This document shows, one piece after another, positions 13,102 to 16,854 of a stretch of 42,093 bases of DNA (position 1 is its first letter; each line of letters begins with the position of its first letter). The position numbers and the translations under genes were made by a program. Source of the DNA: Candidatus Saccharimonadota bacterium (GTDB lineage: Bacteria; Patescibacteriota; Saccharimonadia; Saccharimonadales; Saccharimonadaceae); assembly GCA_017431945.1 (NCBI GenBank), contig JAFRJZ010000025.1:1-42093 (forward strand), in the 5' to 3' direction. The notes under the pieces were generated by a model. That model was given only the letters and a program-made list of their open reading frames with translations, did not search any database and had not been told where the DNA came from.

Positions 13102-13656
13102 TTATATTTCGATAATTCTATAGCCAAAGACGTATTCAATTTTAGTCCCATTATATTCATGGACCATAGTTTCTTCGGTTGGATAAGTATGACCATGCAA
13201 TAAAATTTTAGGATGGCATCTTTCTATATAAGTTCTTAGCCCATTAAAACCCTGATGGGCAATTTCGTCTTCATCATTTATCCCACGAGGTGGACAATGC
13301 GATATAAAAATATCAACGGGCGGAAAAGCCGCAAACATTCTATCCGCTTCTTCTTGTGTGTACATAATTGTTTGCGGATTTTCTTTATATCTTACGCAAC
13401 CTTGGAAACCGCCAAAACTATAATCTTTATATTTCCAGGTGTGCATATGTAAGTTTAACATACCTATCTCGTCCATATATTCCCCCGAATCATGATTACC
13501 ATAAACACCAATTTTTGGAATATTAGTTTTTTGCAAAGATAAAAGCATCGTGCGCTCAAAATCTCCCAAAGATATTATTAAATCTACCTTTTCATTTTCT
13601 GCTAATTGCGACAAATCGATATTTGGATTTCTGTCCGCCACGACAAGACATTTCAT
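13102..13656 (-). CDS. Calcineurin-like metallophosphoesterase
   Basis: A 184-residue protein with the dimetal phosphoesterase motifs LIISLGDFE (D32), GVYGNHD (51-57), the His in FISHCPP (about 119) and HGHTY (about 154-158). The first family motif, normally DxH, reads VADRNPN here, so D8 is present but the usual His ligand is replaced. That may alter metal binding or specificity. Size and motif order resemble small YfcE/MJ0936-like phosphodiesterases. An unusual feature is the -10 TATAAT 7 bases before the ATG with no ribosome site. Substrate unknown. Confidence 0.85.
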   Translation of the reverse strand: MKCLVVADRNPNIDLSQLAENEKVDLIISLGDFERTMLLSLQKTNIPKIGVYGNHDSGEYMDEIGMLNLHMHTWKYKDYSFGGFQGCVRYKENPQTIMYTQEEADRMFAAFPPVDIFISHCPPRGINDEDEIAHQGFNGLRTYIERCHPKILLHGHTYPTEETMVHEYNGTKIEYVFGYRIIEI

Positions 13657-13663
13657 AATACTT

Positions 13664-13669
13664 ATTATA
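13664..13669 (-). promoter_or_regulatory. -10 box of the metallophosphoesterase gene (leaderless start)
   Basis: TATAAT on the minus strand, 7 bases before the ATG. A TGG-TATATA register also overlaps it. Confidence 0.55.
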
Positions 13670-13679
13670 TACCAAAATA

Positions 13680-13688
13680 TGTTATAAT
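13680..13688 (+). promoter_or_regulatory. Extended -10 box facing a short ORF without a normal start
   Basis: TGT-TATAAT. Seven bases downstream is an in-frame ATA codon (13696), not ATG. It is divergent from the metallophosphoesterase promoter. Confidence 0.5.
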
Positions 13689-13695
13689 TATACCT

Positions 13696-13920
13696 ATAAT
13701 AACAGATACACGGGTTGATTATGAATTTAAAGATCGGAATCTTGAATTTTTAAACCAACCAATGACTCCATATATACCGTTCTCCCTTAAAGTCCGACTA
13801 CCAAAACCCGACCACGGAAAGCGTGGTTTTTCAGACGCTTATATAAATAAAGTAAGAAAAAGATTATACGGACAAAATGTAGATTTAGTATCGGGCGGAA
13901 ATATAATATCTTCTTTCTAA
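13696..13920 (+). CDS. Possible small protein with a non-standard or lost start codon
   Basis: From ATA at 13696 the frame is open for 74 residues to TAA at 13918-13920. It includes KDRNLEFLNQPMTPYIPF and a basic region SLKVRLPKPDHGKRGF. The first ATG in frame is at 13762, giving only 52 residues and no ribosome site. Because the promoter sits at the same distance from ATA as others do from ATG, the start may have mutated from ATG (making it a pseudogene) or ATA may be used. No family recognised. Confidence 0.35.
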   Translation: MITDTRVDYEFKDRNLEFLNQPMTPYIPFSLKVRLPKPDHGKRGFSDAYINKVRKRLYGQNVDLVSGGNIISSF

Positions 13921-13977
13921 ATTTAAAAATCAGTTACGAACATAGAAATTGTAAGTCAAATATAATATAATTAAATT

Positions 13978-14116
13978 GTTCTGAATTTCAAGTCTATAGC
14001 AAGTCTATCCTTGATGAGATAGGCAAAGAGTTAGACTCCGAGTGGAGCACTCGCTCCAGTCAGCCTAACCGCTTGCTGTAGAAAATGAAGTTCAGAACAC
14101 TCCATAGCGGGTGTTC
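13978..14116 (+). ncRNA. Putative structured RNA or regulatory leader
   Basis: Outer stem P1 pairs GTTCTGAATTTCA (13978-13990) with TGAAGTTCAGAAC (14086-14098): 13 pairs, one G-U. P2 pairs CTATAGCAAG (13994-14003) with CTTGCTGTAG (14072-14081): 10 pairs, one G-U. Inside are hairpins P3 (CTATC 14005-14009, GATAG 14018-14022) and P4 (GTTA/TAAC and GACT/AGTC, capped by CGAGTG-GAG-CACTCG at 14039-14053). An alternative hairpin P5, GAACAC (14095-14100) with GTGTTC (14111-14116), competes with P1. A TATAAT at 13961-13966 lies just upstream. It precedes the transglutaminase-like gene by about 60 bases, so it may be a riboswitch-like leader or an independent small RNA. I recognise no known RNA family. 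Confidence 0.55.
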
Positions 14117-14179
14117 CACTTAGTTTTAAGGGAATCACTATGTAATATTAAATAATGGCAAAGAGTGCCGGAGGTAAAA

Positions 14180-15184
14180 ATGAGTGAAACAATAGAAAAC
14201 AAAAGCGATACTCTGTCTGATGGAAGTGAAAACCCTTGGCAGAAAATGGCAGATGAAGTTTTAGCAGAAAAAAAGCAAATCGAATCGCTAGATGATACTC
14301 CGGAATCAATGGAAAAAAGTTATTTTGAAACTGAAGCAGAATTTAGTCCAGATAAAATTAAAGAATTCAGAGAAAAATTACTCAACGCTGACGAAGAACA
14401 AACTAAAGCAATTATAGAGTCAAGAATCGCATTTCTTGAAGAATCTTGCGATAGGGTAGATAGAATCTCCCCAAGTGCATTCGGACAGCACGTTCATCGT
14501 GGTTATATCGGCAGTAATACTAATGTTGAATTTCAAGGTGGAATCGTGACAATGGGCAGCCACTATAAACTAAAAGATACTGGTTATCTTTACGAAGCGG
14601 TTTCATTTTTACAAGAAAACAAAGAGTCAGTTGGCAACGGGGCACAGCTGTTTAATAGTATGGAGGGTTTTTTGAATTCTTATTTCGGTATTCCGGATGC
14701 CGCAGTCGGCGACAAAAGAATGGATATAATAGAGCAAAAAGCAGATTTATTAAATCCTGAACTTTCTGATGACGAATATTTTGACGCAATCGACAAAATC
14801 GATATTAGTATATTTAAAGGCGAGCACGCTGCGCAATGTTCCGAACGCTCAGCAATGGCACAAAATATTTTAAGTTTATTCGGTTACGAAACATATTATA
14901 TAAATGGTGCCGCCAGTATAGACGGTAGAAAAGAAGACCACGCATTTAATGCTATTGCCAATAATTTTGGACAAAAAAATATTATGGATTTCTCAATTAC
15001 GTCTACTATGGAATATAGAGGTACTAATTGGGTTGTCCCTACACCAGGAAAAATAACAGATTTTGACGATTTTCTACGAGGCGGCAAAACCAGGACTTCT
15101 ACATATGAAGGTCATATTGACGAAGACGGTAACGTAAGCAGAAAACGAGCACGCAATATCGAGTATAGCGTAATCACGAAATAA
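14180..15184 (+). CDS. Transglutaminase/papain-like fold protein, cytoplasmic
   Basis: A 334-residue protein. The last third carries a transglutaminase-like Cys-His-Asp arrangement. A Cys in AAQCSERSAMAQNILSLFGY starts the nucleophile helix. It is followed by YYINGA, the His in KEDHAFNAI, and the Asp in NIMDFS. The first 100 residues are acidic and low in complexity. No signal peptide is visible. Start chosen at ATG 14180 because GGAGGT lies 4 bases upstream; an upstream GTG at 14165 overlaps that site. Transglutaminase-like folds include proteases, amidases and cross-linking enzymes, so the reaction is unknown. The codon use is A-rich like neighbouring accessory genes. It follows a structured RNA element. 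Confidence 0.6.
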   Translation: MSETIENKSDTLSDGSENPWQKMADEVLAEKKQIESLDDTPESMEKSYFETEAEFSPDKIKEFREKLLNADEEQTKAIIESRIAFLEESCDRVDRISPSAFGQHVHRGYIGSNTNVEFQGGIVTMGSHYKLKDTGYLYEAVSFLQENKESVGNGAQLFNSMEGFLNSYFGIPDAAVGDKRMDIIEQKADLLNPELSDDEYFDAIDKIDISIFKGEHAAQCSERSAMAQNILSLFGYETYYINGAASIDGRKEDHAFNAIANNFGQKNIMDFSITSTMEYRGTNWVVPTPGKITDFDDFLRGGKTRTSTYEGHIDEDGNVSRKRARNIEYSVITK

Positions 15185-15225: not shown

Positions 15226-15615
15226 ATGGAAGAAAAACATTTTGAAGAATGGATTGTCTTGAAAGAGAAACTTCACTTTAATGCCAAAATCCCAAAAATC
15301 TTGGAAGGAGAAGTCTGGTGGTGTAGCTTTGGCGAGAATGTTGGAGTAGAAATTAACGGCAAAAGCACGCGCTTCACTCGTCCAGTTCTGATTATGCGAA
15401 AGTTAAGTAAATTTGGATTTATGGGGATTCCTCTAACTTCACAAGAGAAATCTGGCTCATGGTACGCAGAATTTGAATTTTTAGGCAAAAAGGAATTTGC
15501 CGCTGTGTGCCAGGCAAGAGTTATGAGTGTTTCAAGATTGCACTCCAAGCTGGGACGTGTCCCAGAATCAGATTTAGAAATAGTAAAGAAAGCATTCCAT
15601 GAACTATACAAGTAA
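15226..15615 (+). CDS. PemK/MazF-like toxin domain protein
   Basis: A 129-residue protein. Residues about 27-129 show the MazF/PemK layout: GEVWWCSFGENVGVE near the start, TRPVLIMRKLS, GIPLTS, then the late QARVMSVSRL and KLGRVPESDL. MazF-type proteins are usually sequence-specific endoribonucleases. A 25-residue N-terminal extension (FEEWIVLKEKLHF...) precedes the domain. No antitoxin ORF lies beside it: the upstream neighbour is the transglutaminase-like gene and the downstream one is ychF. The N-terminal extension could take the antitoxin role, or the gene may be an orphan or domesticated; this is inference. Confidence 0.75.
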   Translation: MEEKHFEEWIVLKEKLHFNAKIPKILEGEVWWCSFGENVGVEINGKSTRFTRPVLIMRKLSKFGFMGIPLTSQEKSGSWYAEFEFLGKKEFAAVCQARVMSVSRLHSKLGRVPESDLEIVKKAFHELYK

Positions 15616-15645: not shown

Positions 15646-15732
15646 ATTGCGAGTAACCTCGAATATACTTCCATTATATCAAACATTAAGCGTTTTGTCA
15701 ATAAGGACAGGCAAAATAACAGGAAGGACGGG

Positions 15733-16854
15733 TTGGTTTTGAATTTAAAAATAGGTATCATCGGTTTACCAAACGTAGGAAAATCTACGCTTTTTAATGC
15801 GCTGACCAACGCTGGGGCGCTTGCCGCTAATTATCCTTTTGCTACCATCGAGCCAAATGTTGGCATCGTTCCAGTTCCAGATGAACGGCTAGGCGTATTG
15901 GCCAAAATGTACGAAACCGACAAAGTGGTTCCTGCGACAGTCGAATTTGTTGATATTGCCGGCCTCGTTCAAGGCGCTAGTAGGGGCGAAGGTCTTGGTA
16001 ATAAATTCCTTGCTCACATTCGCGAGTGCCAAGCCATCTGCCATGTAGTGCGCACTTTTAAAAATGACGACATCGTCCGCGCCGACAATCAAATTGAAGA
16101 CGACATCATCAGGCAAGCTAAAGATGATATCGACATTATTAATCTTGAACTCCAATTAGCCGATGAAGAAACTAAGGCGAAGGTAGACGCCAAACGCAAA
16201 AAATCTTCCGAAGACGAACACGTCCCCTACCTCACCGACAAACCAGTCATCTACATGTTCAACGTCGACGAATCCGGCCTAACTGACAGAGATTTGCAGG
16301 ATAAGTTAAAGGACCTAGTGTCGACGGGTGACGCGCATAGCAAGGTCGCGGGTGGCGCCGCTTGGGGGGCAGGTGACGCGCATAGGGGGACCCCCGCCGC
16401 GCGCAGCGCAGCGAGCACGGTGGGGGATAATGCGCGACAGGACCCGCCCAAAGCAAATGCCATATTCGTTAACGCCAAGCTTGAAGAAGAAATGTCCGGC
16501 ATGGACAGAGCCGAACGCAAAGAGTTCTTAGAAAGTTACGGCGTCGAGCACGATGCGCTCGAGGAACTTATTAAAGCTGCCTACCAAACCCTCGGCCTCC
16601 AATCCTTCCTTACTGCTGGCAAAAAAGAGGTTCGCGCCTGGACCATTCATAAAGGCGCTACCGCCCCCGAAGCTGCCGGCACCATTCATACTGATTTTGA
16701 GCGCGGTTTCATCGCCGCTGAAGTCTGTAAATATGACGACCTCAAGCGTCTCGGTTCCGAAAAAGCCGTCAAAGAAGCTGGTCTCCTTCGCACTGAAGGC
16801 AAGACTTACATCATGCAAGAAGGTGATGTCGTTGAATTTAAATTTAACGTCTAG
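15733..16854 (+). CDS. ychF: Redox/ribosome-associated GTPase/ATPase YchF (OLA1 family), altered architecture
   Basis: A P-loop NTPase that binds ribosomes and prefers ATP. Its G1 motif is GLPNVGKST (about residues 11-19), G3 is DIAGLVQGASRGEGLGN, the G4 position reads NVDE, and the C-terminal TGS domain contains ATAPEAAGTIHTDFERGF. Two departures stand out. The helical arm between INLEL and LTDKP is about 36 residues, against about 75 in E. coli YchF as I recall it. About 40 Gly/Ala/Asp-rich residues (from STGDAHS to NARQDP) are inserted after LKDLV. The start is TTG at 15733, with GGAAGG 5 bases upstream; TTG at 15739 fits homologues (MNLKIGIIG) equally well. Confidence 0.93.
   Translation: MVLNLKIGIIGLPNVGKSTLFNALTNAGALAANYPFATIEPNVGIVPVPDERLGVLAKMYETDKVVPATVEFVDIAGLVQGASRGEGLGNKFLAHIRECQAICHVVRTFKNDDIVRADNQIEDDIIRQAKDDIDIINLELQLADEETKAKVDAKRKKSSEDEHVPYLTDKPVIYMFNVDESGLTDRDLQDKLKDLVSTGDAHSKVAGGAAWGAGDAHRGTPAARSAASTVGDNARQDPPKANAIFVNAKLEEEMSGMDRAERKEFLESYGVEHDALEELIKAAYQTLGLQSFLTAGKKEVRAWTIHKGATAPEAAGTIHTDFERGFIAAEVCKYDDLKRLGSEKAVKEAGLLRTEGKTYIMQEGDVVEFKFNV
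16318..16452. mobile_element. In-frame GC-rich palindromic element inside ychF
   Basis: The segment is far more GC-rich than the rest of ychF. It holds two direct copies of GGTGACGCGCATAG (16327-16340 and 16372-16385) and an imperfect inverted copy at the right end (ATGCGCGACA near 16430). It also has an inverted repeat CCCCCGCCG (16391-16399) with CGGTGGGGG (16418-16426), one wobble. The encoded residues have no counterpart in YchF of other bacteria. It resembles the rnhB-yraN insert in being palindromic, GC-rich and open in frame, though the sequences differ. Confidence 0.55.

Follow-up and report, generated by a model that had tools for sequence, protein, structure and literature searches.

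A candidate conformational switch in Saccharibacteria: an apparently undescribed, class-wide family of 5′-leader RNAs

Architecture of the element in the ychF insertion

The DNA analysed here, referred to as the window, is a stretch of 42,093 nucleotides from a Candidatus Saccharimonadota bacterium. At the 5′ end of ychF the window carries a 2018-bp insertion, which contains a structured RNA element, a gene for a 334-aa protein and a PemK-like toxin gene. The element and the start of the gene behind it comprise the following features.

13966–13971, + strand: −10 box TATAAT, with the predicted +1 at 13978, the first base of P1
13978–13990 with 14086–14098, + strand: outer stem P1, 13 bp; double changes in 12 of 12 modelled pairs and ~98% of cells paired in the diverse set
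13993–14003 with 14072–14082, + strand: stem P2, 11 pairs including one G-U; double changes in 11 of 11 pairs
14005–14009 with 14018–14022, + strand: hairpin P3; double changes in 5 of 5 pairs
14030–14037 with 14062–14069, + strand: stem P4, whose loop bears a pseudoknot strand and P5; double changes in 8 of 8 pairs
14043–14048 with 14053–14058, + strand: local hairpin P5, TGGAGC-ACTC-GCTCCA, invariant in 11 copies from the genus
14042–14055, + strand: 5′ strand of the pseudoknot, GTGGAGCACTCGCT, in the P4 loop; found in 30 distant members and 39 more, covariation with 0 of 2000 permutations
14106–14119, + strand: 3′ strand of the pseudoknot, AGCGGGTGTTCCAC, common to P6; covariation, 0 of 2000 permutations
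14095–14102 with 14109–14116, + strand: competing hairpin P6, GAACACTC/GGGTGTTC; double changes in 4 of 8 pairs, 0 of 2000 permutations
14170–14174, + strand: Shine-Dalgarno sequence GGAGG of the downstream gene, read directly
14180–15184, + strand: downstream gene, 334 aa, with a transglutaminase-like Cys/His/Asp pattern

The stretch 13978–14116 folds to −57.1 kcal/mol, compared with a mean of −32.5 (sd 3.6) for 200 dinucleotide-preserving shuffles, none of which was as good (z −6.83). A sequence-only reading of the region had judged its pairing to be far beyond chance, and this judgement holds; a z of −6.8 together with massive covariation rules out chance folding. The 13-bp outer stem of that reading is also present as described, and its second stem exists with 11 pairs, one of them a G-U, rather than 10.

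The same reading placed two hairpins within a three-way junction. Both hairpins are there, and the junction is not the whole structure, as it leaves out a pseudoknot that went unnoticed. It joins the P4 loop to the strand 3′ of P1 and spans 14–21 bp in the family; in the window it has 14 bp, or up to 18 bp with extensions. The U-rich sequence TTAGTTTTA lies directly 3′ of AGCGGGTGTTCCAC, and part of it is able to lengthen the helix. With the 3′ strand at 14106–14119, the element ends at about 14125. P5 is specific to the genus and incompatible with the pseudoknot. Divergent members lose P5 and keep the pseudoknot through compensatory changes, so a three-way junction with P5 is incomplete as the final fold. 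P3 varies: some members have a shortened form or none, and 91% of its cells are paired in the genus and 75% in the diverse set.

The −10 box lies about 6 nt upstream of P1, from which it follows that the outer stem begins at the predicted first nucleotide of the transcript. Members from the same genus have TATAAT, usually as the extended −10 box TGnTATAAT, 6 nt before the GTTC or GTCT that opens P1. Similar spacing occurs in other genera and families, and a few members are without a clear box. This promoter position is a computational result.

Conservation and distribution of the family

By DNA search, a second copy came to light in the window's own genome, and a few relatives turned out to have one to three. 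A covariance model built on 11 copies (R1) had 51 matches, spread over 37 of the 174 genomes searched in the genus. For one built on 49 copies (R2), matches at the family level lay in 62 of 394 genomes, from 17 of 61 genera. A third model, built on 46 diverse copies (R3), was run on the class (Saccharibacteria): 83 of 250 sampled genomes had the RNA, these came from 42 of 111 genera, and a single genome held as many as 7 copies. E-values of these searches are rough, and matches were validated by the pseudoknot, which is absent from R2 and R3. Essentially every match examined has it, as a helix of 8–21 bp, although it lay outside these two models. A weak match in one genome (G792), without a convincing pseudoknot, was set aside, and an exact pattern match in Acidimicrobiia comprises only 19 matching bases and was attributed to chance. 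In named records the hosts are Candidatus Saccharibacteria, and the window's genus comes mostly from ruminant gut.

The check named with the sequence-only reading, for homologues with compensatory changes, was clearly passed. Across 49 genus-level rows, 95.7% of cells in P1–P4 and the pseudoknot are paired and double changes occur in 45 of 50 pairs (0 of 500 shuffles). For P1–P4 in 46 diverse rows, all 36 pairs show them (0 of 500 shuffles). Paired positions on the + strand contain 169 G-T and 53 A-C combinations, i.e., G-U is favoured about 3:1, which points to selection on an RNA of this strand.

The pseudoknot is the most conserved long-range helix of the family. In distant members it pairs an A-rich stretch followed by GGGCACCG with CGGTGTCC followed by a U-rich stretch, and its outer end reaches into the latter (2 of 5000 shuffles). 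Compensated variants among these members are GGGCAGCCAC with GTGGCTGTCC, GGGCAACC with GGTTGTCC, and CGGCACCGCA with TGCGGTGTCG. The stretch 13978–14125 is one copy of a large, class-wide RNA family, shown computationally together with its helices. No known Rfam RNA corresponds to the window copy, as no Rfam 15 covariance model matched 13650–14200 in a default search or in a permissive one (E up to 5). At the gathering threshold, the elements of seven distant loci likewise had no match.

Downstream genes and genomic setting

Among 98 members with enough sequence, 81 precede a Shine-Dalgarno-led ORF of at least 60 aa on the same strand within 130 nt, and only 9 of 101 have such an ORF divergently upstream. 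The distance from RNA to gene is nearly constant (median 35 nt), and the orientation of the upstream gene is random (40 same, 37 opposite). The position before genes is thereby shown computationally. The genes themselves are unrelated. They encode a P-type ATPase, NAD epimerase, PNPOx, YbjQ and DUF4352 proteins, EcoRI-type and other DNA methyltransferases with restriction genes, HsdR_N proteins and a serine recombinase, and many have no Pfam match. This rules out a tie to one gene family within the genus and is unusual for a metabolite riboswitch. Outside the genus, a 75-aa membrane-like protein (MKDRKTYKILT...) follows about a dozen members and is not universal. N-terminal hydrophobic segments occur in 29 of 75 downstream proteins compared with 69 of 442 encoded by nearby genes of 100 aa or more (Fisher p 2e-5); the downstream genes are enriched in membrane-anchored proteins.

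The gene behind the window copy had been called transglutaminase-like. The Cys/His/Asp residues are invariant in four homologues and the best PDB match of the protein model is the transglutaminase-like TglA (E 7e-3), which speaks for the label; it is a weak one, as the model has low confidence (pLDDT 60) and a Pfam search with the protein gave no match. The link between this gene and the RNA is incidental, since the genes behind other copies are unrelated to it and the RNA is missing before two of its closer homologues. These homologues, in G166 and G183, show that gene and RNA are separable. Both (loci L208 and L209) sit immediately downstream of rRNA-operon sequence, namely 16S rRNA sequence and a tRNA gene. 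The sites are apparent rRNA-operon spacers, which suggests a second hot-spot for accessory genes.

The ychF insert is bracketed by imperfect direct repeats (84%) of the ychF promoter and first codons, at 13710–13741 and 15728–15759. In relatives, more repeats stand at irregular intervals upstream of ychF, and the region looks like a hot-spot for insertion of gene cassettes. For the toxin gene of the insert (15226–15615; PemK/MazF-like, Pfam E 4e-8), no separate antitoxin gene is obvious. The idea that every copy has direct repeats for cassette ends was rejected, since they turned up at the ychF site, once each at G116 and G164, and nowhere else.

Two pairs of genomes bear on the movement of the RNA. 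G008 and G081 share the RNA, the upstream DNA and the following gene, and one of them has an extra gene directly after the RNA. G087 and G106 have in common a promoter-plus-RNA unit of about 200 bp (a 46-nt promoter stretch and the RNA) between unrelated flanks. From these patterns, accessory genes either carry the RNA along or reuse it. At another copy (L102, G116:C12), a 52-nt promoter-containing stretch at about −58 to −7 relative to the RNA is repeated (81%) after the downstream gene, at about +981 to +1030, as if the RNA-gene unit had been inserted at a promoter. A phage or plasmid origin of the RNA was rejected, as no match was found in IMG/VR patterns, phages or plasmids.

Competing pairings and the proposed switch

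The sequence-only reading had noted that the 3′ strand of the outer stem could instead form a hairpin with downstream bases. This hairpin is P6 (14095–14102 with 14109–14116), which is incompatible with the pseudoknot and with the first three to four pairs of P1, four of them in the window copy. Members with a P1 ending in GTTC/GAAC have a short P6. An alignment-free test compared the fit of own and swapped partners in 102 non-redundant members with 2000 permutations, none of which reached the values for own partners: 34.4 versus 17.6 for the pseudoknot, 17.5 versus 13.2 for P6 and 28.1 versus 12.4 for P1. These values are to be read with caution, as the pseudoknot and P6 partners are alike, both complementing one strand, and related sequences among the 102 members are not independent events. 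Examples of covarying partners are GACACC/GGTGTC, GACAACC/GGTTGTC and GACAGCC/GGCTGTC. The competing pairings are thus found computationally, and conservation of two mutually exclusive partners is as predicted for a switch.

P6 and the U-rich tract behind it resemble an intrinsic terminator, more clearly outside the genus than in the window copy. The ten positions after the 3′ strand contain on average 7.1 T outside the genus and 5.8 inside, and 24 of 28 members outside the genus have a hairpin followed by at least 6 T in 10. A terminator scan picks up P6, with one terminator-like site against 0.5 expected by chance. In the window's genus AG or GG breaks up the U tract (UUAGUUUU), in part because these bases lengthen the pseudoknot, and the tract of the window copy is weaker. 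As the pseudoknot ends at the U tract, it could itself be the terminating structure. By rough estimates the two states are close in energy in the window's genus, differing by about 4 kcal/mol at most in the window copy, and the pseudoknot is favoured outside the genus; with the pseudoknot penalty a textbook constant fixed at 9.6 kcal/mol, this energy balance is unreliable.

The element is best read as an attenuator or riboswitch-like leader acting in cis, in which the pseudoknot would compete with a terminator hairpin, and the RNA probably switches downstream genes on or off. On balance we lean towards a cis-acting conformational switch as the nature of this apparently undescribed, class-wide family. 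Transcription would start at the predicted first base of P1, and P1–P4 would be the first to fold. Two partners would then be open to the emerging 3′ strand (14106–14119): the P4 loop, which gives the pseudoknot, or the linker plus the 3′ side of P1, which gives P6. Transcription attenuation seems most likely, with the pseudoknot as antiterminator permitting read-through and P6 as terminator ending transcription. We infer transcription itself, the terminator and antiterminator assignment, and its polarity. In the window's genus the interrupted U tract implies that control may be partly translational. The earlier suggestion that mutually exclusive stems mark a riboswitch or attenuator is well supported as regards a regulatory leader, since both pairings of the 3′ strand covary; its ligand part stays putative. 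Features expected of riboswitches that were found are a conserved structured 5′-leader domain and conserved, mutually exclusive platform pairings.

The start of P1 at the predicted +1 would also suit a constitutive stabiliser or insulator, a stable pseudoknotted 5′ end that blocks 5′-end-dependent nucleases and standardises expression of acquired genes, with P6 as a by-product or decay signal. The unrelated genes downstream, some of them mobile or defence genes (DNA methyltransferases, restriction genes, a serine recombinase), would likewise fit such a general module better than a pathway sensor. Covariation of the 3′ strand with two different partners is needless for a plain stabiliser, however, and we think this explanation rather unlikely. 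A purely translational switch, in which hairpins just after the U tract govern access to the ribosome-binding site instead of transcription, is suggested by the many members whose start site lies in a hairpin with its 5′ arm directly after the U tract (for example GGCACTC with GGAGTGCC). Such hairpins are not universal, though, and the Shine-Dalgarno sequence of the window copy is free in the predicted fold, which leaves this version unlikely.

Dispersed and patchy copies, the promoter-plus-RNA unit between unrelated flanks, the presence or absence of a whole gene after the RNA elsewhere, and the location of the window copy within the ychF insertion could all point to a mobile or recombinogenic DNA element (an integron attC-like or MITE-like hairpin) that carries a promoter by chance. 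Yet the G-U/A-C asymmetry, the pseudoknot, the fixed promoter position and the same-strand gene indicate an RNA. Only the window copy and that of G144 lie at the ychF repeats, no long flanking repeats were found at most other copies, and phage, plasmid and viral collections gave no match. The integron attC boxes RYYYAAC and GTTRRRY were not found, as the arms open with GTTCTGA, GTTCGAA or GTCTAGA, not GTTRRRY. We therefore regard a mobile DNA element as very improbable. The same grade applies to a separate trans-acting small RNA that merely has its promoter in common with the gene: a terminator-like end would free a discrete RNA of about 150 nt, but a trans-acting RNA would have no need of the nearly constant, short distance to a Shine-Dalgarno-led gene.

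The cis-acting switch has parallels among known leaders. Processive antitermination leaders, such as put of phage HK022 and EAR of eps operons, are structured RNAs near the transcript 5′ end. The present RNA is like them in being structured, near the predicted 5′ end and placed before unrelated genes; it has no Rfam match. In the fluoride (crcB) riboswitch a pseudoknotted 5′-leader domain opposes a terminator hairpin, with strand exchange before the gene (PMC11077080), and in the ZTP (pfl) riboswitch pseudoknot and terminator compete by strand displacement (PMC10085676). Our RNA shares with both a pseudoknotted leader competing with a terminator-like hairpin and is a member of neither family. 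It differs in sequence and architecture, in its length of about 150 nt, in having no Rfam match and in the unrelated genes downstream, and here one strand makes both the long pseudoknot and the terminator-like hairpin. Comparative-genomics studies describe candidate structured RNAs that, like this one, were found by covariation and lie in 5′ leaders, with their function open (PMC8040213, PMC2864571). Neither Saccharibacteria nor TM7 is mentioned in the main text of PMC8040213, and overlap with a motif listed in its supplement is possible. A literature search that took in large motif surveys by their main text found no description of a Saccharibacteria leader RNA, and an anonymous earlier listing is possible. 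The RNA family is apparently undescribed so far.

Little is known of gene control in Saccharibacteria, ultrasmall epibionts that are abundant in the microbiomes of humans and animals. If the proposed switch is real, a leader present in about a third of the sampled genomes, in up to seven copies, would be a main regulatory device of the class. Tentatively, it may be a class-wide sensory RNA (a new riboswitch, or an attenuator that senses a protein or the ribosome), a general means of controlling genes for membrane-anchored proteins and genes acquired horizontally, and possibly a replacement for protein regulators in these reduced genomes. The family offers direct targets for RNA-seq, probing and reporters. 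Inducible expression tools are wanted for Patescibacteria and riboswitches have been suggested (PMC11665869); the RNA, if it acts as proposed, would be a native regulatory part for such tools.

Two further observations concern sequences behind individual copies. Several of the proteins encoded there (the window at 14180–14260; L098, L102, L112, L120, L137 and L140) have in common a short N-terminal motif, either ENPWQKMAEE-like or a related form that contains W, and differ in the rest of their sequence; the motif could be a targeting or export signal. Behind a distant copy (L205, G633:C9), a LOOT RNA (RF03000) and a group I intron are located near a recombinase gene.
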